Below, piece after piece: positions 19,184 to 32,113 of a stretch of DNA of 64,000 bases (the first letter of the stretch is position 1; each line of letters starts with the position of its first letter). Source of the stretch: Pseudomonadota bacterium (lineage in GTDB: Bacteria > Pseudomonadota > Alphaproteobacteria > Sphingomonadales > Sphingomonadaceae); NCBI GenBank assembly GCA_020160755.1, contig JAIUPN010000011.1, positions 62,001 to 126,000 of the forward strand, written 5' to 3'. The notes beneath the pieces are model-generated. The model saw nothing but the letters and a program-made list of their open reading frames with translations, ran no database searches and was not told where the DNA came from. The position numbers were made by a program, and so were the translations under genes.

Positions 19184-20599
19184 ATGCGGCAAGGCGTTTT
19201 CGGAAGCACGATACTCCGCCTGACGCTCATGCTCGCGCTTGCGCAGATCGCCGCGCTCGCGCTCGGCCTCACCGTCATCCACCGCTTTACTTCCGCAACG
19301 ATCCTCTCGGACGCCCGTACCGCGGCCGAGGTCGCCCGCGACGATCTGACAGACGATTTTCGTCAGCTCGGCCTGCCCGGACTGATCAAGGCGATCGATT
19401 ATCGATTGACGGTCCGCGACGATCGCAATTTTATCGTCTTGCTCAAGGCACCGGACGGAAGGGCGCTGGCGGGCAATCTGCGCGAATGGCCGGCGACCGT
19501 TGCGGACACCGCACACTGGCGTCAAAGATCGCTGATGCGCGCGGGATCCACGGTGGCCGAACCGATGGGCGTCGTCACGACCCGCTTGCCCGGCGGATAC
19601 GCCCTGTTGACCGGAGAGGTGCTGGAAGCGCAGCACCAGCTGGTACAGGCCAGCGAAGCCGCATTTCTGTACGCGCTCACCATCGGCCTGTTGATCGCCG
19701 TTCTGATGGCGGCTTTTGTGGCGTGGATACTGGCGCGCCGCATCGACGCATTTTCGCGCGCAGCCAATGCCTTTGTCGGCGGCAAGCTCGACACCCGCGT
19801 CGAGCGCGACCAGACCGGAGATGCCTTCGACCGGCTCGCACTCTCGATCAATACGATGTTCGGTCGCATCGCAGGCCTCGTACGCGAACTGCGCATGGTG
19901 ACAGATTCGATGGCGCATGATTTGCGTTCGCCGGTGTCCCGGATGAAGGCCCGCCTCGAACAGGCACTCGGGCGAACACCCGATATCGAGGCGCAGGCAG
20001 CCATTGCGAGCGCGATTGAAGAAGCCGACGGTCTTCACCGTCTGCTCGACACTGCGCTCGAGATCAGCCGCGCCGAAGCCGGAATCGGCCGCGACCGATT
20101 TACCAGCTTCGACCTTCGCCCGATGCTCGACGATCTGGCAGAAGTCTACGGACCACTGGCTGAAGATCACGGGTTCACGGTCAAGGTCGATGCCCCAGCA
20201 GCGCTCGTGGTTTTTGCGCACCGCGAATTATTGATGCGGGCGCTCTCCAACCTGATCGACAATGCGCTGAAATATGCTGCGGGCGGATCCTCGATCCGTA
20301 TCGAAGCTGCGGTCGACGCCGCCGCGGGTATCGAACTCTCGGTCGCCGACGACGGGCCTGGACTAACCGATGCCCAGATGGTGCAGGCAACACGACGCTT
20401 TGTCCGTCTGGATCCGGCACGGGGCGGTTCTGGCGGAGGACTTGGCTTGTCGCTCGTCGAGACGATCGCCCACCTTCACCAGGGTAGGATGCGCCTCGCC
20501 CGCGCCCTCCCCCACGGGCTGGCCGTCAGCCTGACACTCCCGATCGCGACAGGGAATGGCCTCCCCGATGGCCGGAATTCCACGGGGTCCGACGTGTGA
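19184..20599 (+). CDS. Sensor histidine kinase (system 2)
   Basis: 471 residues: membrane segments at about 9-31 and 162-186, a ~130-residue periplasmic sensor, HAMP, H-box DSMAHDLRSPVSRMKARLE, N-box LSNLIDNALKYAAGG and G-box DDGPGL / GGGLGLSLVET. Same architecture and similar sequence to the kinase at 12531, consistent with duplication of the whole two-component system around the acvB-mprF operon. Periplasmic sensing next to a lysyl-lipid operon suggests a response to cationic peptides or low pH, by analogy with LpiA systems; not shown here. Confidence 0.93.
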   Translation: MRQGVFGSTILRLTLMLALAQIAALALGLTVIHRFTSATILSDARTAAEVARDDLTDDFRQLGLPGLIKAIDYRLTVRDDRNFIVLLKAPDGRALAGNLREWPATVADTAHWRQRSLMRAGSTVAEPMGVVTTRLPGGYALLTGEVLEAQHQLVQASEAAFLYALTIGLLIAVLMAAFVAWILARRIDAFSRAANAFVGGKLDTRVERDQTGDAFDRLALSINTMFGRIAGLVRELRMVTDSMAHDLRSPVSRMKARLEQALGRTPDIEAQAAIASAIEEADGLHRLLDTALEISRAEAGIGRDRFTSFDLRPMLDDLAEVYGPLAEDHGFTVKVDAPAALVVFAHRELLMRALSNLIDNALKYAAGGSSIRIEAAVDAAAGIELSVADDGPGLTDAQMVQATRRFVRLDPARGGSGGGLGLSLVETIAHLHQGRMRLARALPHGLAVSLTLPIATGNGLPDGRNSTGSDV

Positions 20600-20734
20600 C
20601 CCTATCGGTCTCACGGCCCTGTGTCCGCGGCGAGCCCCCGCGAAATTGCCGAGCGAATAGAAGATCGGCCACCCCTTGCAGATTTCGCTGCCGCGAAGCC
20701 GATGCGGTCCGTGGCGTCGGCCCCCGGCCTTTCA

Positions 20735-21871
20735 TCAGATGTGCAGGCGTTCGGGCCGGATCTGGTGCGGCTCGACGCCATTCTCCCGAAGCAGTTCGGG
20801 CCAGGGAAGATCGAACAGCAAGGCTTCGGCGGCCAGCGCCATCGCGGGCGACGTCTGAAGCCCGTAGCCGCCCTGCCCGGCGAGCCAGAAGAATCCCGGC
20901 GCGTCGGCCGCGAACCCGGCCGTGGGCACCTTGTCCGCGACGAAGCTTCGCAACCCGGCCCATTTCAACGCGATCCGGTCCACCGACAATGTCGTCGCCT
21001 CTTCGACGCGCCATGCGGCAAGCGCCGTTTCATAATCCTCCGGCTGGACGTCGCACGCCGGCGAAGGCGTGACATCCATGGGAGACGCCAGCAGCCGGCC
21101 GGAATCGGGCAGCATATAGAAACCATCGTCGTAAACGGTCTTGAGGAACGGCCAGTCCGACACATCAAGCCCCTGCGGCGGATCGAAGCCGATGATTGTC
21201 CGCCGCAGCGGGATCAATCCGAGCGGGCGGACACCGGCCATCGACGCCAGCTCGTCGGCCCAGGCGCCCCCGGCGTTGACGACGATCCGTGCGGCATAAC
21301 TCTCCCCCGCCGTATCGACGATCCAGTCGGATCCGTCGTGCGCGATACCCGTCACCCCGGCGTGGAAATATATCTCGCCGCCAGCGGCCCGCAGCGCGCG
21401 CGCGTTGGCCTGAAGGAGCAGGTCCGCGTCGAGCTTTCGCCCCCCCGTGTCGACCAGTCCGGCAACCGCGCCGCCGTCGCCGACTTTGAGCGCGGGGACG
21501 ATCGCCTGCATTTCGCGCGGCCCCACCTGCTCGATACTGTCCGTGAAACGCCGCATTTCGATCTCGAGCGCCGTCAGCTGGTCCATCGTTTCGGATGTCG
21601 CGAAGAACATGGCCGATTTCGTCTGCCACAGCGGCGGCAGCTCCTCGCCACCCGGCGGATTGGCAAAGAAGTGGCGGCTGGCAGCCGTCAGCCCGCGCAC
21701 GGCGTCATCGCCGATGCCGAAATGATAGAAGGTCGCGCTGCGCCCCGACGAATGATAGCCAAGCGCGCTTTCACGTTCGAGCAAGATGGTTTCCGACCGC
21801 TGCGCGAACCGCGCCGCCGCCGACACGCCGGCAATTCCGCCACCGATCACCAATATTTCGACCCGCCTCAA
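20735..21871 (-). CDS. FAD-dependent D-amino-acid dehydrogenase-like oxidoreductase
   Basis: 378 residues of the DAO family. The N-terminal dinucleotide motif is ILVIGGGIAGVSAAARFA; further family features are GYHSSGRSATFYHFG near residue 40 and the C-terminal FAD loop WLAGQGGYGLQTSPAMA. The pattern resembles D-arginine/D-amino-acid dehydrogenases, which oxidatively deaminate D-amino acids. The start is TTG at 21871, whose TTGA overlaps the aminopeptidase stop by 4 bases, so translation is coupled. Neighbour logic: the peptidase releases D-residues and this enzyme oxidises them. Substrate range is inference. Confidence 0.88.
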   Translation of the reverse strand: MRRVEILVIGGGIAGVSAAARFAQRSETILLERESALGYHSSGRSATFYHFGIGDDAVRGLTAASRHFFANPPGGEELPPLWQTKSAMFFATSETMDQLTALEIEMRRFTDSIEQVGPREMQAIVPALKVGDGGAVAGLVDTGGRKLDADLLLQANARALRAAGGEIYFHAGVTGIAHDGSDWIVDTAGESYAARIVVNAGGAWADELASMAGVRPLGLIPLRRTIIGFDPPQGLDVSDWPFLKTVYDDGFYMLPDSGRLLASPMDVTPSPACDVQPEDYETALAAWRVEEATTLSVDRIALKWAGLRSFVADKVPTAGFAADAPGFFWLAGQGGYGLQTSPAMALAAEALLFDLPWPELLRENGVEPHQIRPERLHI

Positions 21872-23226
21872 CGAACCTTCCCCTTCGCCGGCGCCGGGGG
21901 CCGCGCCGCTGGCGGGCGATAGCGGGCGATCGCCTGCCTGACCGCCGCGATGTCGAGCGCCTCGCCCCTCGCCGCGCCGGCTTCGGCCGTCGTCTGCCGA
22001 TCGATGGTCGTCGCCATCAGCAGCGAATTGTAGATCGCTTCCTCGGCCGCTTCCGACACCGCCACGAACAGCGGCGACATTTCATCATTGGCCAGTTCGG
22101 GATAGGCGGCGACGCCGGCGCGCCGTGCGGACGTCCGGCGCACCCCGGCGGCGGTCGAGAACGCGACGGCATAGTCGCCGGACCCGTTCGAAAAGGCCGC
22201 GCCGGTCCGCGCCAGACCGGCGATCGCACGATGGGCAAGCCGGGTCAGATTCCGGTCGCCAAGCGGCGCATCGGTCGCCACGACGAGGATGATCGACCCG
22301 TCGGCGGACGCCCGCTCGCTGTGCTCGCGCAAATAATAGCGGCCGAGAGCTTTCCCGACCGGGACGCCGTCCATCGTCAGCGTCCCGCCATAGTTGGTTT
22401 GCACGAGAACGCCGACGCGATAGCCGCCCAGCGCCTGCGGAAGGATGCGCGAACTCGTCCCGATGCCGCCTTTCCAGCCAAAGGCCATGGTACCCGTGCC
22501 GGCTCCCACGCTTCCTTCCGCAACCGGACCGCCAGTCGCGGCCTCGATGGCTGCGATCACGTCCGACCGACCGATCACCCGCTTGCGGATGTTGTTGAGG
22601 ACACTGTCGTTGGTCTCGCCGACAACCGCATTGACCGACCGGACATGTTCATTGCCGGGCCGCCCAAGAGTCCAGTCGAGAATGCCATCGATCGCCGGCG
22701 CGACGCTCAACGTGTTGGTCAGGACGATCGGCGTTTCGATCTCGCCCAGCTCGGCGATCTGCGTTGCGCCCGCAAATTTGCCGAAGCCATTGGCGACCAC
22801 GATGCCCGCCGGCACCTTGTCCTGGAAAATATTGCCGCCATGCGGCAAAATCGCCGTGACGCCGGTCCTGACATCGGCACCCTCGATGCGGGTCACCTGA
22901 CCGACCAGGACACCGTCGACATCGGTGATGGAATTGAGGGGGCCGGGTTTGAATATCCCCGGCGTGATGCCAATGTCGCGGGCATGGACGCGCGGCTGGT
23001 CGGCGACCTGCGCCAGCGACGATCCCGTCGCCCCCATACCGATCGCCATTCCGGCACCCGCCAGCAACGCAGCCAGCGTTCCTCGCCGCCCGCGCGCGAG
23101 GCGTTGGCCAAGTGTGCACAGGCTGGACCATTGGCCAGATACGGCCGCGGAGATACCACGTTTATGGAAGGACAAGCGCAATGACCTGCTTTGCTGGCTG
23201 ACAGAAGTCACTTGCCTAATCCGCAA
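21868..23226 (-). CDS. dmpA: P1-family aminopeptidase/esterase (DmpA type), exported
   Basis: Up to 452 residues. The mature core begins near HARDIGITPGIFKPGPLNS and carries the self-cleavage/nucleophile motif SNGSGDYAVAFS: DmpA-family enzymes cut themselves before this Ser to give two subunits. Known members remove N-terminal D- or L-residues from peptides and amides. A hydrophobic stretch GTLAALLAGAGMAIGMGATG followed by SSLAQ looks like a (possibly twin-arginine, GRRG) signal. The start is uncertain: I give the outermost TTG at 23226, but an internal GTG or TTG within the next 50 codons is equally possible. First gene of a two-gene operon with the D-amino-acid dehydrogenase. Confidence 0.85.
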   Translation of the reverse strand: MRIRQVTSVSQQSRSLRLSFHKRGISAAVSGQWSSLCTLGQRLARGRRGTLAALLAGAGMAIGMGATGSSLAQVADQPRVHARDIGITPGIFKPGPLNSITDVDGVLVGQVTRIEGADVRTGVTAILPHGGNIFQDKVPAGIVVANGFGKFAGATQIAELGEIETPIVLTNTLSVAPAIDGILDWTLGRPGNEHVRSVNAVVGETNDSVLNNIRKRVIGRSDVIAAIEAATGGPVAEGSVGAGTGTMAFGWKGGIGTSSRILPQALGGYRVGVLVQTNYGGTLTMDGVPVGKALGRYYLREHSERASADGSIILVVATDAPLGDRNLTRLAHRAIAGLARTGAAFSNGSGDYAVAFSTAAGVRRTSARRAGVAAYPELANDEMSPLFVAVSEAAEEAIYNSLLMATTIDRQTTAEAGAARGEALDIAAVRQAIARYRPPAARPPAPAKGKVR

Positions 23227-23262
23227 CGGGCGATCCTGACAATATCTATGCGGCGGCAGCCT

Positions 23263-23277
23263 ATAGAAATTTTCTAT
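23263..23277. promoter_or_regulatory. Palindrome in the promoter region of the DmpA operon
   Basis: Perfect 7-bp arms ATAGAAA / TTTCTAT around one base, 37-51 bp upstream of the outermost dmpA start and AT-rich in a GC-rich setting. A second weaker dyad (CTGAAA...TTTCAG) follows at about 23283-23300. Likely operator; binding protein unknown. Confidence 0.4.
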
Positions 23278-23421
23278 GGGCCTGAAAGGCGCTTTTCAGA
23301 TGCTTCAACAAAACGGTCGCCAATTTCGAGGGAGCCGGTTCTCCAGGTGGATGGCGTAGACATTGAACGGGATGGGCGGGTGGAGCAGCTTGAAGGAAAC
23401 GCCCGGCCCGACGATCGACCG

Positions 23422-24759
23422 TCATTGCCGATAGCTTTTGATCTCGATCCCGTGACGCGCGATCTTGTCGTACAGCGTTTTGCGCGGAACCCGCAATATC
23501 GCCAGCGTCGCCGCCACATCGCCGCCGGTGCTGGCCAGCGCGTCGCGGATCGCGTGCGCCTCGAACTGCGCAACGCGTTCGGGCAGCGTCGGCATCGCTT
23601 CGCTGGCGGCCCCCATGCGCGGCGCGATGCCGAGCACTTCGCTATAGGCGAAATTGCGCAGCTCACGGACATTCCCCGGCCAGTCATGCTCGATCAGATG
23701 CCGGCGCGCGACGTCGCCCATGCTGAAGTCCTGCCCGCCCATGCGCCCGGCCGCTTCCTCGACGAAGTGCGCGAAAAGCTGAGGTATATCGGCCTTTCGC
23801 TCGCGGAGCGGCGGCATCCGCAACCGGACGACGTTGAGCCGATAGAATAGATCCTCGCGAAATGTGCCTGCGCGAACGGCTTCCTGCAGGTCGCCCCGCG
23901 CCGACGCGACAATACGCAGGTCCACCGACCGCGGCTCGGTCGCGCCGATCGGCTGCACCTTCCGTTCCTCGACCACGCGGAGCAGCTTCGCCTGAATCGC
24001 GAGTGGCATATTGTCGATGCCGTCGAGGAACAGCGTGCCGCGATCGGCTTGTTCAACCCGCCCTTCGCGAGCGACCGGGCCGTAACCGACGGCGCCGCGG
24101 TCGTGGCCGAACAATTCGACTTCGGCGAGCTGTTCGGGGAGCGCGGCGCAGTCGACCGCGACGAACGGACGCCCCGAACGCGGCCCCTTGCGGTGGAGAA
24201 GCAGCGCCGCGAGTTCCTTGCCGGTGCCGGTTTCGCCCTCGACCAGCACGTCGATGTCGGCGCGCGCGATCTGGAGGATGGTCGCGCGAAGCTGCGCCAT
24301 CGCCGGGCTGTCGCCGATCAACGGGCTGTCGACGCTCGTTTCGGCGGCGGCGCGCAGCATCCGGTTGTCGAGGATGAGCCGCCGCGTTTCCAGCGCCTTG
24401 CGTGCAGATGCGACCAGATGATCGGTCGCATAGGGTTTGGACAGAAAGTCGAAGGCCCCGCCCTTCAGCGCGCCGATCGCCATCGGAACGTCGGCGTGGC
24501 CGGTGATCATGATGACCGGGATGTCGGGATCGATCGCCCGGATACGCGCGAAAAACTCAAGCCCGTCGACGCGCGGCATCCGGATATCGGTGACGACGGC
24601 GCCCGCGAAGCCTTCGTCGATTTCCGCCAGCGCTGCCCCGGCCTCGGCAAAGGCGCGGACCTCGATATCGGCGAGTTCGAGCGACTGGGTCGTCGCCGCG
24701 CGCAAGGCGTCGTCATCGTCGACGAAGATGATGTGCTGACGGGTGACGAACGCGCTCAT
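23422..24759 (-). CDS. dctD: DctD-like NtrC-family response regulator with altered AAA+ motifs
   Basis: 445 residues: receiver (Asp in VVTDIRMPRVDG, Lys in LSKPYATD), AAA+ domain with Walker A GETGTGKE, arginine-finger region FREDLFYRLNVVRLRMPPL, and a C-terminal Fis-type helix-turn-helix (ALASTGGDVAATLAILRVPR). The sigma-54-contact loop, normally GAFTGA, reads GAVGYG, and the Walker B DE pair reads DG (GTLFLDGID). Both changes would weaken classical sigma-54 activation, so it may act as a DNA-binding regulator without RpoN. Coupled to dctB by a 4-base overlap; next to dctA as in C4-dicarboxylate systems. Confidence 0.9.
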   Translation of the reverse strand: MSAFVTRQHIIFVDDDDALRAATTQSLELADIEVRAFAEAGAALAEIDEGFAGAVVTDIRMPRVDGLEFFARIRAIDPDIPVIMITGHADVPMAIGALKGGAFDFLSKPYATDHLVASARKALETRRLILDNRMLRAAAETSVDSPLIGDSPAMAQLRATILQIARADIDVLVEGETGTGKELAALLLHRKGPRSGRPFVAVDCAALPEQLAEVELFGHDRGAVGYGPVAREGRVEQADRGTLFLDGIDNMPLAIQAKLLRVVEERKVQPIGATEPRSVDLRIVASARGDLQEAVRAGTFREDLFYRLNVVRLRMPPLRERKADIPQLFAHFVEEAAGRMGGQDFSMGDVARRHLIEHDWPGNVRELRNFAYSEVLGIAPRMGAASEAMPTLPERVAQFEAHAIRDALASTGGDVAATLAILRVPRKTLYDKIARHGIEIKSYRQ

Positions 24760-26510
24760 GCCCGGCGCACCACCAGCCTGAACGCGGCGCCCCCCATCGG
24801 CGAGGCGATATGGTCGAGCGTCCCGCCGAATTCGCGCGCGATGTCGCGCGCGATCCCCAACCCCAGGCCGAGCCCATCGGCCTTGCCGGTGACGAAGGGG
24901 GTGAAGAGATTGTCGGCAACGTCGGGATCGACCCCCGGCCCGTTATCGGCAACGGTGATGGCTACCTCTGCTTCCGCCGCCGTCTCGATCCGGATGCGCG
25001 GATCGGGGTGGCCGGCGAGCGCATCGAGCGCATTCTGGAGCAGGTTGACGAGGATCTGTTCCAGCCGCACGCGGTCGGCGATGCAGCGAAGCCCCGCCGT
25101 CTCCCCTACCCGTTCGATCGTCACACCATTTTCGCGAATGCGATCGCCGACGAGCAGCAGCGCGCCGTCGATGACCGGGCCGATGTCGACCGGCCCCATC
25201 GTCGGCGTGGTGCGGCGGGCGAAGCTGCGCAATTCGGCGATGATCGCGCCGATCCGTTCGGTCAGCGACACGATCGTCCCCAGATTGTCGCGCGCCTTGC
25301 CGACGTCGCCGCGATCGAGGAACTTCCCGGCATTCTCCGCAAAGCCGCGGATCGCCGCGACCGGCTGGTTGATCTCGTGCGCGACGCCCGCGGTGATCTG
25401 GCCGATCGTGCCGAGCCGGCTCGCCTGCGCCAGTTCTTCACGCGCCGCCCGGAAACGCCGGTTCGCGTCGACCAGGTCGGATGTTCGCGCGGCCACCTCA
25501 ATCTCGAGCATATGGCGTGCCTCCGCCTGCAATCGCCGCTTTTCACCCGCGCGGAATACCCAGATCAGCAGCGCCGCGAGCAGGATGAACGCGATCAATA
25601 TCGCCGTCCGCGCGGTCGCGTTCGCGCTGGCTTCGGCGGGCGCCAGCGGCTGGAAGGCATAAAGCCGCGCCCCCGCCATCGGCACCGCGACGGCGGCCTC
25701 GCGGTAACGGACGGCGGGGCTGGTCCAGGTGCCGCCATCGCGCGTCAGCGGCAACGGCGTGAGCGGCAGATTGCCGAACTGCAAGGCGGCGCGGATCGCA
25801 GCGCGCGTCGGCGCGTCGATCGGCGCGAGGGTACGGAACCGCCAATCGTCGCGGCTGGTGATGATGATGACACCATGGTCGTCGGCGACGAAGGTCGAGA
25901 GCGGCTGGCGCGCCCATTCGGCTTCGAGCCGGTCGAATTCGACCTTGACGACGATCACCCCCAATGTCCGGCCCGCCTCTTCGACACGGCGCGCAATGAA
26001 CAGGCCGGGCCGGCCGCTGACCGTACCAAGCGCGAACAGCTCGGCGCCGCCGCTGGCCAGCGCATCACGGAAATAGGGGCGGAACCCGTAATTCTGGCCG
26101 ACGAAACTCTGGGGCTCGCGCCAGTTGCTGGCGGCGATCGTCCGGCCGTCGTGCGCGATGACGTAGATGACCGCGGCATCGGTCCGTTCGGCGAGCAGTT
26201 CCAGCTTGCTGTTCATGCGCCGCACCGTCGCGGCGTCACCGCCGCCGAGCACGTCGTGGACATCGGGATATTCGATCAGCACCAGCGGCAGCAGGCGGAA
26301 TTTCTGAAGCTCGCCGGCAAGGCGGCTGGCGGCGCTTCGCGCCTGCTGTGCCGCGGCGATGTCGGATGCGGTACGCGCGTGCCCGCCCGCCCATCCGAAG
26401 GCCGCGAACGCGATGGCCGCCAGCAACAGCGCTGCCAGCGCCGCGGCCCAGCCGAGCCGCCGCCCGGCGCCGGACACACGCGAATCAATCGGCTGGAGCA
26501 GCTTCGTCAT
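24756..26510 (-). CDS. dctB: DctB-like sensor histidine kinase
   Basis: 584 residues: membrane segment about 20-42, a ~255-residue periplasmic double-Cache-type sensor (SNWREPQSFVGQNYGF is typical of DctB), second membrane segment about 303-322, a coiled linker, H-box GVAHEINQPVAAIRGFAEN and ATP-binding motifs NLLQNALDAL and DNGPGVDPD / GLGLGLGIA. DctB in other proteobacteria senses C4-dicarboxylates with DctA. The start codon at 26510 lies inside the left arm of a perfect palindrome, which suggests autoregulation. Precedes dctD with 4-base overlap. Confidence 0.92.
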   Translation of the reverse strand: MTKLLQPIDSRVSGAGRRLGWAAALAALLLAAIAFAAFGWAGGHARTASDIAAAQQARSAASRLAGELQKFRLLPLVLIEYPDVHDVLGGGDAATVRRMNSKLELLAERTDAAVIYVIAHDGRTIAASNWREPQSFVGQNYGFRPYFRDALASGGAELFALGTVSGRPGLFIARRVEEAGRTLGVIVVKVEFDRLEAEWARQPLSTFVADDHGVIIITSRDDWRFRTLAPIDAPTRAAIRAALQFGNLPLTPLPLTRDGGTWTSPAVRYREAAVAVPMAGARLYAFQPLAPAEASANATARTAILIAFILLAALLIWVFRAGEKRRLQAEARHMLEIEVAARTSDLVDANRRFRAAREELAQASRLGTIGQITAGVAHEINQPVAAIRGFAENAGKFLDRGDVGKARDNLGTIVSLTERIGAIIAELRSFARRTTPTMGPVDIGPVIDGALLLVGDRIRENGVTIERVGETAGLRCIADRVRLEQILVNLLQNALDALAGHPDPRIRIETAAEAEVAITVADNGPGVDPDVADNLFTPFVTGKADGLGLGLGIARDIAREFGGTLDHIASPMGGAAFRLVVRRA

Positions 26511-26538
26511 TTGTGCGGATTATCGCACAAATGACGAA
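26503..26538. promoter_or_regulatory. 36-bp perfect palindrome at the dctB start
   Basis: Arms of 15 bp (TTCGTCATTTGTGCG and CGCACAAATGACGAA) around a 6-base centre GATTAT. The left arm contains the dctB initiation codon. It lies between divergent dctB and dctA. The half-site CACAAAT recurs in the neighbouring dyad at 26553. Likely operator for the dct regulator; an RNA hairpin limiting dctB translation is an alternative. Confidence 0.6.
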
Positions 26539-26552
26539 TGACTAAGCGGAAA

Positions 26553-26569
26553 ATCACACAAATTGTGAT
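26553..26569. promoter_or_regulatory. Second dyad in the dctB-dctA gap
   Basis: ATCACA and TGTGAT arms around CAAAT, with the inner palindrome CACAA-A-TTGTG. It repeats the CACAAAT half-site of the 26503 palindrome, 22 bases further on. The orientation TCACA...TGTGA is the reverse of a CRP site. Probably a second binding site for the same regulator. Confidence 0.45.
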
Positions 26570-26709
26570 GACCTCCTCGCCGGGCATCGTAATTATTCTT
26601 TATTTATCAGATGATTACCTAAGATTTAGAAGCCGCTTGGTACGCCCGGAAGCTCGCTCATAAAATCACCCGAAGCAGCGGCGCAAAGCCGTGCCGGGAG
26701 ATGGAGCGC

Positions 26710-28050
26710 ATGGCGGCAATCGCAATTCAGGATAGCGGGCAGACACCGGCGGGAAAGACACCCTTCTATCGCCACCTCTATGTCCAGGTCCTTGTGGCCA
26801 TCCTGCTCGGCGCCGTCATCGGCCATTTCTGGCCTGTCTGGGGCGAAGCGCTCAAGCCGCTCGGCGACGGTTTCATCAAGCTGGTGAAGATGATCATCAG
26901 CCCGGTGATTTTCCTGACCGTCGTAACGGGCATCGCGGGCATGAAGGAAATCGCTTCGGTCGGCCGCGTTGCGGGCAAGGCCTTCGCCTATTTCCTCTTC
27001 TTCTCCACCCTCGCACTGATCGTCGGCCTGATCGTCGCGAATCTCGTCCAGCCGGGCGCGGGCATGAACATCGACCCCGCGACGCTCGACGCCAGCGCGG
27101 TCGCAGATTTCGACAAAAAGGCGCATGAGGTCAGCCTGACGGGCTTCCTGCTCGAAATCATCCCGACGACCTTCCTGTCGGCGTTCACCGAAGGCTCGAT
27201 TCTCCAGACGCTGTTCGTCGCCATCCTGTTCGGCCTGTCGCTGTCGATGGTCGGCAAGCCCGCCGAACCCGTGCTCGACCTGCTCGAGCGGATCGGCATC
27301 GTCGTCTTCCGGCTTGTCGCGGTACTGATGCGCGCCGCGCCGATCGGGGCGTTCGGGGCAATCGCCTTCACGATCGGCAAATATGGCCTCGGCTCGCTCG
27401 TCAATCTCGGGCAGCTCGTTGCGACCTTTTACCTGACCTCGCTCATTTTCGTGCTCGGGGTGCTCGGCGTCGTTGCGCGGCTCAACGGCTTCTCGATCCT
27501 CAAGCTCTGCCGCTACCTCAAGGCCGAACTGCTTCTCGTGCTCGGCACCTCCTCGTCCGAAGCCGCACTGCCCAGCCTGATCGAGAAGATGGAGCGCGCG
27601 GGCTGCGAAAAGTCGGTCGTCGGGCTGGTCGTACCAACGGGCTATTCGTTCAACCTCGACGGCACCAACATCTATATGACGCTGGCCGCGTTGTTCATCG
27701 CACAGGCGTGCAATGTCGAGCTGTCGCTCGGCGACCAGGTCGCGCTGCTCCTCGTCGCGATGATCAGTTCCAAGGGCGCCGCGGGGGTGACGGGCGCCGG
27801 TTTCATCACGCTCGCCGCGACATTGTCGATCGTCCCCTCGGTCCCCGTCGCGGGCATGGCGCTGATCCTCGGCATCGACCGCTTCATGTCCGAATGCCGC
27901 AGCCTCACCAATTTCATCGGCAATGCCGTCGCGACGGTCGTCGTCGCGCGCTGGGACAATGCGCTCGACCGCGAACAGCTGCGGCTCGCGCTCGACGGCG
28001 ATCCGGCCCCCGGCATCGCCGCGCCGCCGGTCGAACAGGACATGGATTAG
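26710..28050 (+). CDS. dctA: DctA-type C4-dicarboxylate:cation symporter
   Basis: 446-residue inner-membrane transporter of the DAACS/GltPh fold, eight transmembrane helices and two hairpin loops. Signatures visible are [20 protein letters not shown], the serine-rich hairpin [32 protein letters not shown] and the substrate-binding [19 protein letters not shown]. It imports succinate, fumarate, malate or related acids with protons or sodium. Start at 26710 has GGGAG 9 bases upstream; an ATG at 26701 abuts that site. Divergent from dctB-dctD and 39 bp upstream of a TonB receptor on the same strand. Confidence 0.94.
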
Positions 28051-28089
28051 GGGCCGAAAAGGTCCAGAAAAATAACAGGGAGGATGATC

Positions 28090-31000
28090 ATGAGAGGTAC
28101 GAAATCGGCAATGCTGCTGACGAGCACGGCGCTCTGCCTGCTCGCCTGCGCGCCGGCCCGGGCACAGGACAGCGGCGCAACAGCAGACAGCGCAGCGCAA
28201 GTGGATGAAACCGCCGCCGCAAGCGACATCGTCGTCGTCGGCACACGTATCGAAGGCGCGCGCGTCACCGAAGCGCTGCCCGTCGTCGTCGTCGGACAGG
28301 ATCGGATCGACGCGATCGGCGCGGTCAGCGGCGACGAACTGATCCGGAACATCCCGCAGATGGGCGACGTCAGCTTCAACCCCGGCAACAATGCGCAGAC
28401 CAGCAACGCCGCGCGCGGCGACGTCGGTTCGGTCAACCTGCGCTCATTGGGCGTCGGCAACACGCTGGTGCTGCTCAACGGCCGCCGCATCGTCACCCAC
28501 CCCGCGAGCCAGGGCCTGTCGGACACCGGCACCGTCCCGGTGCTGAGCTATAACTCGAACGCCATCCCGACGACGGGGCTTCAGCGGCTCGAGGTGCTGC
28601 TCGACGGCGCCGCGGCGCTGTACGGTTCGGATGCCGTCGCAGGCGTCGTCAACACCGTGCTCAAGGACAACTACGACGGCCTCCGGCTCCAGGGGCAATA
28701 TGGTGGCGCCGAAGGAACGCATTTGCGCGAATTCCAGGGCAATATCCTCGCGGGCAAGAGCTTCGATCGCGGCAACATCACCCTGTCGTTTGAATATACC
28801 GACCGCGCAGCGTTGCGGGCGGAGGATCAGGATTTTACCGCATCGGCTGACCTGCGTCCGTTGTTCGCCGATTATCCGGGCTTCGCCGGATCGACCACCC
28901 CCGACGGCCGCGCAACGCGTGGCGCCTGGCCTGCGCTGATGGTTCCGGTCACCGGCGGCCGCCCGCGCCGCGGCGCCACGAACCTGACCACGGCGGCGGG
29001 CGCCTTCACCGTTCGCCCGACCAGCCTCGGCGGCTGCACCCAGCAGCTCACCCCCGACCTCTGCCTCGTGAACACCGCGCTCGCGACCACGGGCGCCTTC
29101 CGCAACCTGCGCTACGACACCGCGGTCGGGACGACGGTGATGCCCAGCGTGAAGCGCTATAATGCCTTTGTGAACGGCCATTATGACGTGACCGACGATC
29201 TGACGCTGTTCGGCGAGTTCGGCTATTACCGTTCGAATACGACGCGCATCCAGCCGCCGGTGATCAACCTCAACCAGATCTGGATTCCGGCGAGCAACTA
29301 TTACAACCCGTTCGGTGCAGCGACGATCAATGGTCAGCCGAACCCCAATCGCATCCCGGGCCTCGTCAACGTGCCCGCGGCGGGCCTGCCGGTCCTGCTC
29401 ACCACCTATCGCTTCGTCGATACCGGGCCGCAGGCGGTGAAAGTCTCGGGCGAGCAGTTGCGCGGCCTGATCGGGGTGCGCGGCGAGACAGCGGGTTTCA
29501 AATGGGACAGCGCCTTCGTCTATTCCGAAGCCTCGGCGGTCGACAGCAGCCTCGCGGTGCGCAGTTCGGCGCTCCAGCAGAGCCTCGCGCTCGCGATCCC
29601 CGACGCGTATAACCCGTTCAACGGCGGCTGCATCGACAGCCTGAGCTCGGGCGATTGCACCCCAAGCTCGCAGACGGCGCTCGACGCGATCACCTTCCAG
29701 CTCCAGCGCCGGTCGAAGACGACGCTGACGATGGGCGACTTCCGCGCCTCGCGCGCCGGTCTGCTCACCCTGCCCGGCGGCGACCTCGGCGTCGCGTTCG
29801 GCGTCGAAGTACGGCGCGAGACGCAGCGCGACGACCGCGATTCGGCGGTCGACGGGTCGAGCCCGTTCATCGACGCGGTGTCGGGCGCGGTGACGATCAG
29901 CGACGCCGCGGCGGTCAGCGACAATCCCGACACCTATGGCAAGCGCACCGTCGCGGCCGCCTATGCCGAACTCGCGGTGCCGATCGTGTCGGAGGAGATG
30001 GGCATCCCGCTCGTCCGCCGTTTCGATATCCAGCTCGCGGGCCGCTATGAACATTACAGCGATTTCGGCAGCGTCGCCCGGCCGAAGGTCGCGGCGGCGT
30101 GGGACGTCGTCGACGGGTTCCGCCTGCGCGGTTCCTTCTCGCAAGGCTTTCGCGCCCCGAACCTCGAACAGGTCAACGCGGTCGAATATGCGCGCCTCGC
30201 GACCAGCCAGGATTTCCTGCGCTGCGAGGTCGACCTGCGCGCCGGACGCATTCCCGATTTCAACGCGTGCGGCAACAATGTCGGCTATTCGCGCCGCGTG
30301 TCGGGGAACCCCGACCTCAAGCCCGAGAAGAGCAGCAACTATAATCTCGGCGCGGTGTTCGAGCCGACCTTCCTGCCTTCTGACCTCGGCCGCATGACCT
30401 TCACCGTCGACTATTGGTCGATCAGGCAAAAGGGCATCGTCGGCATCCTCGGCAACGACACCGCAATCGCGCTCGACTATCTGCTCCGCCTTCAGGGATC
30501 GTCGAACCCGAACGTCATTCGCGACGCCGCCAACGCCGATGATGTGACCGCATTCGCAGGCACCGGAATCGCGCCGGTCGGCCGCATCACCACGGTGCGC
30601 GACCAGTTCATCAACCTCCAGCCGCAAACGGTACGCGGGCTCGACTTCGCCTTTTACTGGCAATCGCCGAAGACCGACGTGGGCAAGTTCGACTTTGCCG
30701 TCAACGCGACGCGGCTGCTGAAATTCTCGCGGGCGCCCGGCGATGCGGTCGACCAGCTCGTCGCTGCCCGCGCCGCAGGCGACATCAATGTCGCAACGCC
30801 TTTGCCCGAGACCCAGAATCTGATCGAGGCCAACGGCCGCCCGAAATGGCGCGGCACCGCGTCGCTCACATGGTCGCTGGGCCAGTTCCAGGTCGGCGCC
30901 TTCGCGCGCTACACCGGTGCGGTCGATGAAACGGCGTTCGTCGATGTCGATGGCAATCCATGGCGCGTCAAATCGCAGCTTACCGGCAATCTTTATGCGC

Positions 31001-31167
31001 AGGTGCGGATCAAGGATACCGGCGGTCTGGGCGGCGACATGCGCTGGCGCGTGGGGGTACGCAATATAACGAACGAAAAACCGCCGCTTTCGTCTGAGGG
31101 CTATCTGGGATCGCTGTACAGCCCCTATGGCCGCTATTGGTACACCTCGGTCACCACGGAGTTCTGA
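28090..31167 (+). CDS. Large TonB-dependent receptor linked to dctA
   Basis: 1025 residues: signal peptide ending ...ARAQDSG, TonB-box-like IVVVGTRIEG, plug containing LLNGRRIVTHPAS and LLDGAAALYGSDAVAGVVN, and a long barrel ending ...YWYTSVTTEF with terminal Phe. The length and plug type match sphingomonad/Caulobacter receptors for organic nutrients rather than siderophores. GGGAGG stands 6 bases before the ATG at 28090. With dctA 39 bp upstream and an SGNH hydrolase 1 bp downstream it forms a three-gene operon, probably importing a dicarboxylate-containing or ester substrate across the outer membrane. Confidence 0.93.
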   Translation: MRGTKSAMLLTSTALCLLACAPARAQDSGATADSAAQVDETAAASDIVVVGTRIEGARVTEALPVVVVGQDRIDAIGAVSGDELIRNIPQMGDVSFNPGNNAQTSNAARGDVGSVNLRSLGVGNTLVLLNGRRIVTHPASQGLSDTGTVPVLSYNSNAIPTTGLQRLEVLLDGAAALYGSDAVAGVVNTVLKDNYDGLRLQGQYGGAEGTHLREFQGNILAGKSFDRGNITLSFEYTDRAALRAEDQDFTASADLRPLFADYPGFAGSTTPDGRATRGAWPALMVPVTGGRPRRGATNLTTAAGAFTVRPTSLGGCTQQLTPDLCLVNTALATTGAFRNLRYDTAVGTTVMPSVKRYNAFVNGHYDVTDDLTLFGEFGYYRSNTTRIQPPVINLNQIWIPASNYYNPFGAATINGQPNPNRIPGLVNVPAAGLPVLLTTYRFVDTGPQAVKVSGEQLRGLIGVRGETAGFKWDSAFVYSEASAVDSSLAVRSSALQQSLALAIPDAYNPFNGGCIDSLSSGDCTPSSQTALDAITFQLQRRSKTTLTMGDFRASRAGLLTLPGGDLGVAFGVEVRRETQRDDRDSAVDGSSPFIDAVSGAVTISDAAAVSDNPDTYGKRTVAAAYAELAVPIVSEEMGIPLVRRFDIQLAGRYEHYSDFGSVARPKVAAAWDVVDGFRLRGSFSQGFRAPNLEQVNAVEYARLATSQDFLRCEVDLRAGRIPDFNACGNNVGYSRRVSGNPDLKPEKSSNYNLGAVFEPTFLPSDLGRMTFTVDYWSIRQKGIVGILGNDTAIALDYLLRLQGSSNPNVIRDAANADDVTAFAGTGIAPVGRITTVRDQFINLQPQTVRGLDFAFYWQSPKTDVGKFDFAVNATRLLKFSRAPGDAVDQLVAARAAGDINVATPLPETQNLIEANGRPKWRGTASLTWSLGQFQVGAFARYTGAVDETAFVDVDGNPWRVKSQLTGNLYAQVRIKDTGGLGGDMRWRVGVRNITNEKPPLSSEGYLGSLYSPYGRYWYTSVTTEF

Positions 31168-31168
31168 C

Positions 31169-32113
31169 ATGAAAAACGGGCACGGCATCTGGTTTCTGAT
31201 CGGCGCTGCCGCGCTCGCCATCGCGCCGGCGGCAGTGGCAAAGGAGAGCGCGCCCGCGCCGACCGCCGCCGGCGCGACCTCCTCCGCACCACCCAAAGCG
31301 GCGCCGAAGACGATCCTGTTCATCGGCAACAGCTTCACGCAGGGCGCGCATTCGGCGGCGCGCAACTGGCGCGCGGGGTCGGTCACCGACCTCAACAACG
31401 CCGGTTACGGCGGGGTGCCCGCGCTGTTCAAAGCGTTCGCCGAGCAGGCGGGGCTCGATTACCAGGTCAGCCTCGAGACGCAGGGCGGCAAGTCGCTGGG
31501 CTTTCACTACGACGAGCGGCGCCAGCTCTTCGACGCCAAATGGGACATCGTCGTGCTGCAGGAATTCAGCACGCTCGACCGCGAAAAACCGGGCGATCCC
31601 GCCAATTACATGTACAATGTCGACCGGCTCGCCGCGCTGTTCAAGGCGCGCAACCCCGCCGTAGACATCCGGCTGGCGTCGACATGGACGCGCGCCGACC
31701 AGACGTACAAATCCGGGGGGCATTGGTACGGAAAGCCGGTGACGGCGATGGCCGATGACCTCCGCGCCGCGGCCGACCGCGCACGCGTCGCCAATCCGTC
31801 CGTGGCGGGCGTCGTGCCGGTCGGCCAGGCCTGGAACCGCGCGATGACGACCGGCGTCGCCGACCCGAACCCCTATGACGGCACCAGCTATGGTCAGCTC
31901 GATCTGTGGGCCTACGACCATTATCACGCGAGCGTCGCCGGTTCCTATCTGTCGGCACTCGTGACCTTCGGCGCGATCACCGGCGTCGATCCGACGGCGC
32001 TCGGAGCAAAGGAAAAGGGCGCCGACGAGCTCGGATTGTCGGACGCGCAGGCGGCGGCGTTACAACGCGTAGCCCGCGACGAGCTACAAAGCCTGAAAAG
32101 CGGCGCGCGCTGA
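31169..32113 (+). CDS. Secreted SGNH/GDSL-fold hydrolase (DUF4886-like)
   Basis: 314 residues: signal peptide (IGAAALAIAPAAVA), a Pro/Ala linker, then ILFIGNSFTQGAHS with the candidate catalytic Ser in GNSFT, WDIVVLQEFSTLD, and the C-terminal Asp-x-x-His in YDHYHASVAGSY. These fit an SGNH esterase related to DUF4886. It starts 1 bp after the receptor stop with ACGGAG upstream, so it belongs to the dctA-receptor operon. A periplasmic esterase here could release an organic acid for DctA; this is inference from context. Confidence 0.8.
   Translation: MKNGHGIWFLIGAAALAIAPAAVAKESAPAPTAAGATSSAPPKAAPKTILFIGNSFTQGAHSAARNWRAGSVTDLNNAGYGGVPALFKAFAEQAGLDYQVSLETQGGKSLGFHYDERRQLFDAKWDIVVLQEFSTLDREKPGDPANYMYNVDRLAALFKARNPAVDIRLASTWTRADQTYKSGGHWYGKPVTAMADDLRAAADRARVANPSVAGVVPVGQAWNRAMTTGVADPNPYDGTSYGQLDLWAYDHYHASVAGSYLSALVTFGAITGVDPTALGAKEKGADELGLSDAQAAALQRVARDELQSLKSGAR

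Follow-up and report, generated by a model that had tools for sequence, protein, structure and literature searches.

Departure of an activator from sigma-54 control without loss of regulation at its target is an evolutionary puzzle, because activator and promoter must change together. The dctBD/dctA locus analysed here raises this question. It lies in the window, i.e. the whole stretch of 64,000 nucleotides under analysis, and its nearest named records belong to Sphingopyxis. A dctD-like response regulator gene encoding 445 residues (23422-24759, minus strand, from the ORF list and domain profiles) has a start overlapped by 4 bases by a dctB-like sensor kinase gene (24756-26510, minus; dCache, HisKA and HATPase domains), and a dctA-like C4-dicarboxylate symporter gene (26701-28050, plus) diverges from both. 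Translation of dctA probably begins at the ATG at 26710, aligned with a GTG in relatives, rather than at 26701. A TonB-dependent receptor gene (28084-31167, plus) begins 33 bases past dctA and possibly forms one transcript with it; it occupies the same place in the window clade and in locus L051 (85-92%), and relatives at 56-77% adjoin dctA in L107, L108, L143 and L148. A search with Rfam over 20000-32000 gave zero matches.

The domain profiles above cut-off (Response_reg, Sigma54_activat, AAA_lid_14 and HTH_8) follow the DctD-type order of receiver (REC), AAA+ sigma-54 interaction domain and Fis helix-turn-helix (HTH). The L1 loop (residues 222-227; 24079-24096, minus, position computed from the ORF), contained in the ORF translation within LFGHDRGAVGYG, reads GAVGYG replacing GAFTGA. 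In the Walker B segment, GTLFLDGID, the Asp-Glu of ATP hydrolysis is replaced by Asp-Gly (residues 246-247; 24019-24024, minus; ORF and alignment). Both replacements had been described in a sequence-only reading of this DNA and can be read directly in the translation of 23422-24759. That reading was also right that Walker A (GETGTGKE, 24214-24237), the arginine-finger segment FREDLFYRL (23836-23862; ORF and alignment) and the Fis-type HTH (HTH_8, 23455-23574), all on the minus strand, are kept, as confirmed by ORF translation and domain profiles. The phosphoacceptor Asp58 of the receiver is intact (24586-24588, minus; domain profile and alignment) and WPGNVREL is also present. In the alignment, residue 203 (24151-24153, minus), by position the switch asparagine, is Asp and is Asn in 23/23 GAFTGA-type DctDs; sensor-region T287/K288 are likewise altered. 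The AAA+ domain is retained although L1 has lost GAFTGA, as seen by profile, AlphaFold and Foldseek. The AlphaFold model has an ordinary AAA+ fold (pLDDT 84.7, pTM 0.53) and carries little information on L1. The top Foldseek match was Brucella NtrX (5m7o, 32-33% identity), and VpsR (7v2b) matches in both sequence and fold. The receiver matched PDB entries 1qkk and 1l5y, which we take to be the S. meliloti-type DctD receiver.

To see how far these losses reach, 121 distinct DctD-like proteins were gathered by genus, family, order and class searches plus one named-genome scan. Genomes were drawn evenly in these searches and few candidates were scored in each, so a canonical DctD in some sphingomonad may have been missed. 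The matches of six genomes (G089, G114, G157, G159, G171 and G257), ending near residue 370 or 409, were taken by coverage as other bEBPs and dropped. Matches of a second search ending near residue 370-416 were dropped too, L126-L138 after inspection; L244 was removed as a duplicate of L105. GAFTGA was found in 23 of the 121 proteins, all of them among the 30 from other families, and the alignment of sphingomonad DctDs suggested by the sequence-only reading finds it absent in 91/91 family members. The tree holds 100 of the 121 proteins, after 19 near-duplicates were thinned by hand and L047 and L060 omitted. In it the dctA-linked DctDs without GAFTGA group into a single 72-row clade (SH-aLRT 93) that lies inside the GAFTGA DctDs, and the closest GAFTGA DctDs are also dctA-linked. 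Two members of this clade come from outside the family, L164 and L234 (the latter of the same order). On its dctB/divergent dctA linkage and this nesting, the window DctD is identified as a DctD orthologue. A separate group with GAFPGA was formed by L177, L193, L153, L155, L170 and L172, several without dctA nearby and some with a Walker B DG.

By parsimony, GAFTGA requires 3 changes and the Walker B Glu 15; the counts are 9 at the switch Asn position, 6 at the first R-finger and 2 at the Walker A Lys. On this tree, GAFTGA loss is family-wide and loss of the Walker B Glu is recurrent and later. The sequence-only reading had coupled the two losses; both motifs are indeed absent from the window DctD, but the coupling is too strong a statement across the tree. 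Sister Sphingopyxis DctDs (25 loci) have no GAFTGA loop and yet keep DE, the switch Asn, both R-fingers and a strongly conserved AAA+ domain, so the Walker B loss is separate from the sigma-54 switch. A test of independent pairs on the tree for joint loss of the switch Asn, Walker B Glu and R-finger gave nothing significant. The motif losses, and their single or recurrent origin, are thus read from aligned sequences and the tree.

Sites with at least 90% conservation among the 23 GAFTGA proteins were scored in 90 GAFTGA-less ones (L047, with its split frame, was left out of the counts). The phosphorylation, ATP-binding and DNA-binding residues are retained in this comparison: Asp58 and receiver Lys108 stand at 1.00, Walker A Lys and the second R-finger at 0.98 and Walker B Asp at 0.92, and most HTH positions are also kept. 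Those lost were the F (0.03) and T (0.07) of GAFTGA, Asn203 (0.42), the Walker B Glu (0.53), the first R-finger (0.66) and T287/K288 (about 0.4). In the seven-species clade of the window both Glu and Asn are gone, and six relatives (81-92% identity) have xGYG in L1 and a Walker B DG in 6/6; a further Sphingopyxis MAG (L192) also has both. Both GGC and GGT occur as codons for the Walker B Gly in this clade. Among seven of its sequences dN/dS was about 0.14 for the AAA+ domain, about 0.12 for L1 and 0.11-0.21 across all DctD domains, indicating that the altered domain is still selected. A mutation specific to the window or a sequencing error was ruled out by the motifs common to the clade, the two Gly codons and the low dN/dS. 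The AAA+ to REC branch-length ratio was 0.63 outside the GAFTGA-less clade and 1.17 inside; the window clade, at 1.10, fits a raised rate where Glu and Asn were lost, and the sister clade, at 0.60, a low one where both were kept. Roles in moving L1 are described for PspF Glu108 and the switch asparagine, and NtrC1 E239A is described as an ATP-bound Walker B mutant (both in the available part of PMC7175178).

Decay of dctD into a functionless gene is barely credible: the nearly doubled AAA+ to REC rate ratio of the GAFTGA-less clade and the clade member Sphingopyxis sp. PET50 (L047/L189), whose dctD is broken into two frames near residue 297 by an error or a frameshift, would fit it, but the other clade members have an uninterrupted reading frame, dN/dS is low in all domains, and Asp58, Walker A Lys, HTH, upstream sites and dctBD/dctA synteny are kept.

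The genome still has sigma-54. The sigma-54 DNA-binding domain family gave one match in the assembly of the window, in an open frame of 493 amino acids, and rpoN was present in 79/79 genomes checked that hold DctD-like matches. This check, proposed in the sequence-only reading, rules out rpoN loss as the cause. Five perfect YTGGCAYRN4TTGCW sites were found in the assembly vs 0 for the reversed pattern, and 3 of them precede flgB-, fliE- and PII-like genes (products named by sequence reading). As rpoN is present and other genes of this genome have sigma-54 promoters, the change concerns the DctD regulator specifically.

We have compared the dctA promoters of 91 loci with dctA divergent from dctBD, 8 with GAFTGA and 83 without. 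The -24/-12 score before dctA was 11-12 of 12 in 8/8 GAFTGA loci (p <=0.015 by shuffling) and mostly <=8 in the 83 GAFTGA-less promoters, with exceptions of 10 in L143, L150 and L259 (in the last, inside its upstream site) and 9 in L102 and L236. Before the window dctA the best score was 7 of 12, the chance level, and the earlier statement that no sigma-54 promoter is visible there stands against the 11-12 of all eight controls. L143 (5121-6446) encodes a GAFPGA protein, and before its dctA a sigma-54 score of 10 of 12 is still reached, at -56; from its sequence it may be an evolutionary intermediate.

A sigma-70 scan was run with weights taken from E. coli. With these weights the mean best score was 7.6 vs 5.8 shuffled in the 83 GAFTGA-less loci, 30 of which reached p 0.05, and 2.6 vs 3.6 shuffled in the 8 GAFTGA loci. 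The signal was weaker outside the genus Sphingopyxis, and within the window clade the window alone reached p 0.05 (p 0.15-0.52 in seven clade-mates). An independent scan of 26400-26760 returned a single promoter, TTGGTA-18-TAAAAT at 26637-26666, with 0.1 expected. Its -35-like element TTGGTA (26637-26642, plus) starts 94 bases from the UAS2 start, and the -10-like TAAAAT (26661-26666, plus; promoter scans and alignment) follows an 18-base spacer. A CCGGC-N6-GCCGG-like inverted repeat lies between -35 and -10 in several Sphingopyxis (L044-L046, L051) and there is none in the window.

Two upstream sites (UAS) precede this promoter, UAS1 (TGTGCG-GATTAT-CGCACA, 26512-26529, plus), the only perfect copy in the 4.3 Mb genome, and UAS2 (TAAGCG-GAAAAT-CACACA, 26543-26560, plus), 31 bases after it. 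Single UAS-like matches with <=2 mismatches do not exceed chance within the window (1 found vs 6.43 expected), so the evidence for the UAS is their conservation. With <=5/24 mismatches, the TGTGCG-N6-CGCACA pair was found in 8/8 GAFTGA loci and 69/83 GAFTGA-less ones, and the spacing in the latter was 32 in 57 and 31 in 11. A -35-like element lies 92-95 bases from UAS2 in 33/33 aligned Sphingopyxis loci (3 with a weaker xTGGA form), and 29 of the 33 have TANNNT at an 18-base spacer. The position peaks exceed those of nulls made by shifting rows. Six GAFTGA relatives have the -24 element at 90, 91, 91, 91, 93 and 93 bases from UAS2, and two more have it at 59 and 60. In other sphingomonads the -35-like TTG peak is at 82 and the -10-like peak at 105, about one helical turn nearer. 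Replacement of the promoter and retention of the UAS are, like the motif losses, readings of the DNA itself.

Taken together, we favour, with a probability of roughly 0.78, that the DctB-controlled DctD no longer remodels sigma-54 RNA polymerase and acts as a phosphorylation-controlled enhancer protein on sigma-70 RNA polymerase at dctA. The sequence-only reading had predicted three parts of this. Loss of sigma-54 remodelling is favoured by the comparative data, in which -24/-12 vanishes together with GAFTGA; the switch to sigma-70 promoters by the sigma-70-like promoter at a fixed distance from conserved DctD-type sites; and control by phosphorylation of a DNA-binding regulator by the kept Asp58 and Fis-type HTH. 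DctD phosphorylated at Asp58 would bind the palindromic pair, of which UAS2 begins about 94 bases and UAS1 about 125 bases before the -35, and an ATP-binding, hydrolysis-deficient AAA+ assembly would recruit or stabilise sigma-70-type RNA polymerase at dctA. We infer here the phosphorylation, the occupancy of the UAS by the window DctD, the lack of hydrolysis and the direct activation of sigma-70 polymerase. One change at the base of the sphingomonad DctDs probably removed GAFTGA from the activator, and alongside it the dctA promoter would have lost -24/-12 and gained a sigma-70-type promoter, with UAS and kinase staying in place. Walker B Glu, switch Asn and first R-finger would then have been lost piecemeal in several lineages, Glu and Asn in that of the window.

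The UAS could also serve dctBD, since UAS1 abuts the dctB start (it lies 2 bases upstream of it). DctD might then be a repressor or autoregulator only, acting at the UAS pair for dctBD, with dctA read from an independent sigma-70-type promoter; Caulobacter NtrC is an activator as well as a repressor and represses its own expression (from the available part of PMC10274813). We consider this unlikely, because the distance from UAS2 to the -35 is held at 92-95 bases in 33 congeners and that from the -35 to the dctA start varies by some 29 (about 59 to 88), and because the geometry is near-identical to that of the -24 in sigma-54 relatives, where such sites serve dctA. Far less probable is that DctD still acts with sigma-54 at some promoter through its rewritten L1 loop. 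The intact rpoN and the conservation of the new L1 in the clade (dN/dS about 0.12) would allow it, and sigma-54-dependent flagellar genes rose in expression with Caulobacter NtrC alleles that lack both GAFTGA and DNA binding (in the accessible text of PMC12421884), showing that sigma-54 genes are not strictly beyond the reach of a regulator that has no GAFTGA. In the window clade, however, the F and T of this motif, present in 23/23 controls, are missing, the Walker B Glu and switch Asn are gone as well, and the perfect UAS occurs once in the genome, at a promoter without -24/-12.

For the preferred reading, a sigma-70 enhancer at dctA, we tentatively suggest, at somewhat less than even odds, that the dctA promoter was converted in place from -24 to -35 with its UAS enhancer kept, and that living sphingomonads represent successive stages. 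Reuse of the -24 as a -35 in the genus is proposed from position and resemblance: the -24 TTGGCAC, 90-93 bases from UAS2, would have become a -35 (TTGGCCC, TTGGAC, TTGACC) at 92-95, with a new -10 at 18 bases, and an enhancer of the sigma-54 world would now drive sigma-70 polymerase from its old distance. In the first stage, that of most Sphingopyxis, L1 would be rewritten beside a full ATPase; in the window clade ATP would be bound but not hydrolysed; and in other genera the first R-finger, sometimes with the Walker B Asp, would be gone as well.

GAFTGA-less bEBPs acting with sigma-70 are already known. Brucella NtrX also lacks GAFTGA and differs from the window DctD in partner and genes. Rhizobium/Sinorhizobium and other GAFTGA-type DctDs share with it REC-AAA+-Fis HTH architecture, a DctB partner, divergent dctA and paired upstream sites, but the window DctD lacks GAFTGA and the Walker B Glu and its dctA has no -24/-12 promoter. 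Rhodobacter capsulatus NtrC, likewise a phosphorylated bEBP relative without GAFTGA, has a distal site pair upstream of a sigma-70 promoter. The phospho-site, HTH, ATP-binding residues and distal paired sites kept here, together with the lost sigma-54 and hydrolysis residues, match the account given for that protein, in which sigma-70 activation needs phosphorylation and ATP binding rather than hydrolysis (PMC10274813, in the part available). It differs in that its GAFTGA is deleted, whereas in the window clade L1 is rewritten and the Walker B Glu lost, and in being another regulator with another regulon. Caulobacter NtrC, also an alphaproteobacterial bEBP without GAFTGA, is described in the same portion of PMC10274813 as activator and repressor at sigma-70 promoters; it has an eight-residue L1 deletion instead, and its ATPase residues are reported there as needed in vivo. 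TyrR, DhaR, HupR, VpsR and others are listed as sigma-54-independent bEBP homologues without functional GAFTGA (PMC3162934, as far as its text was available). TyrR, DhaR, HupR and VpsR are not DctD, and are scattered cases vs one promoter traced through a bacterial family here. In the literature searched, with subscription journals mostly outside it, we found no paper describing sphingomonad dctA/DctD regulation or dctA promoters, and PMC6472365 has nothing on sphingomonad dctA/DctD regulation. Three features seem new: a single operon changed on the scale of a family, -24/-12 disappeared while the UAS persisted, and the ATPase was taken apart by degrees.

This operon can be traced, along with its sites, kinase and transporter, across many species with sigma-54 still present and the ATPase ranging from full to dismantled, a range that makes the role of an AAA+ domain after sigma-54 remodelling ends testable. 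Labelling these DctDs sigma-54-dependent is probably a mistake throughout an entire bacterial family. The genome of the window has seven strong bEBP matches, 4 with GAFTGA or GSFTGA and 3 with neither: the window DctD, an NtrX-like protein and one (L007, C1:554115) with GAFAGA and a Walker B IIIDH replacing DE, so this genome has another regulator with a comparable loss.
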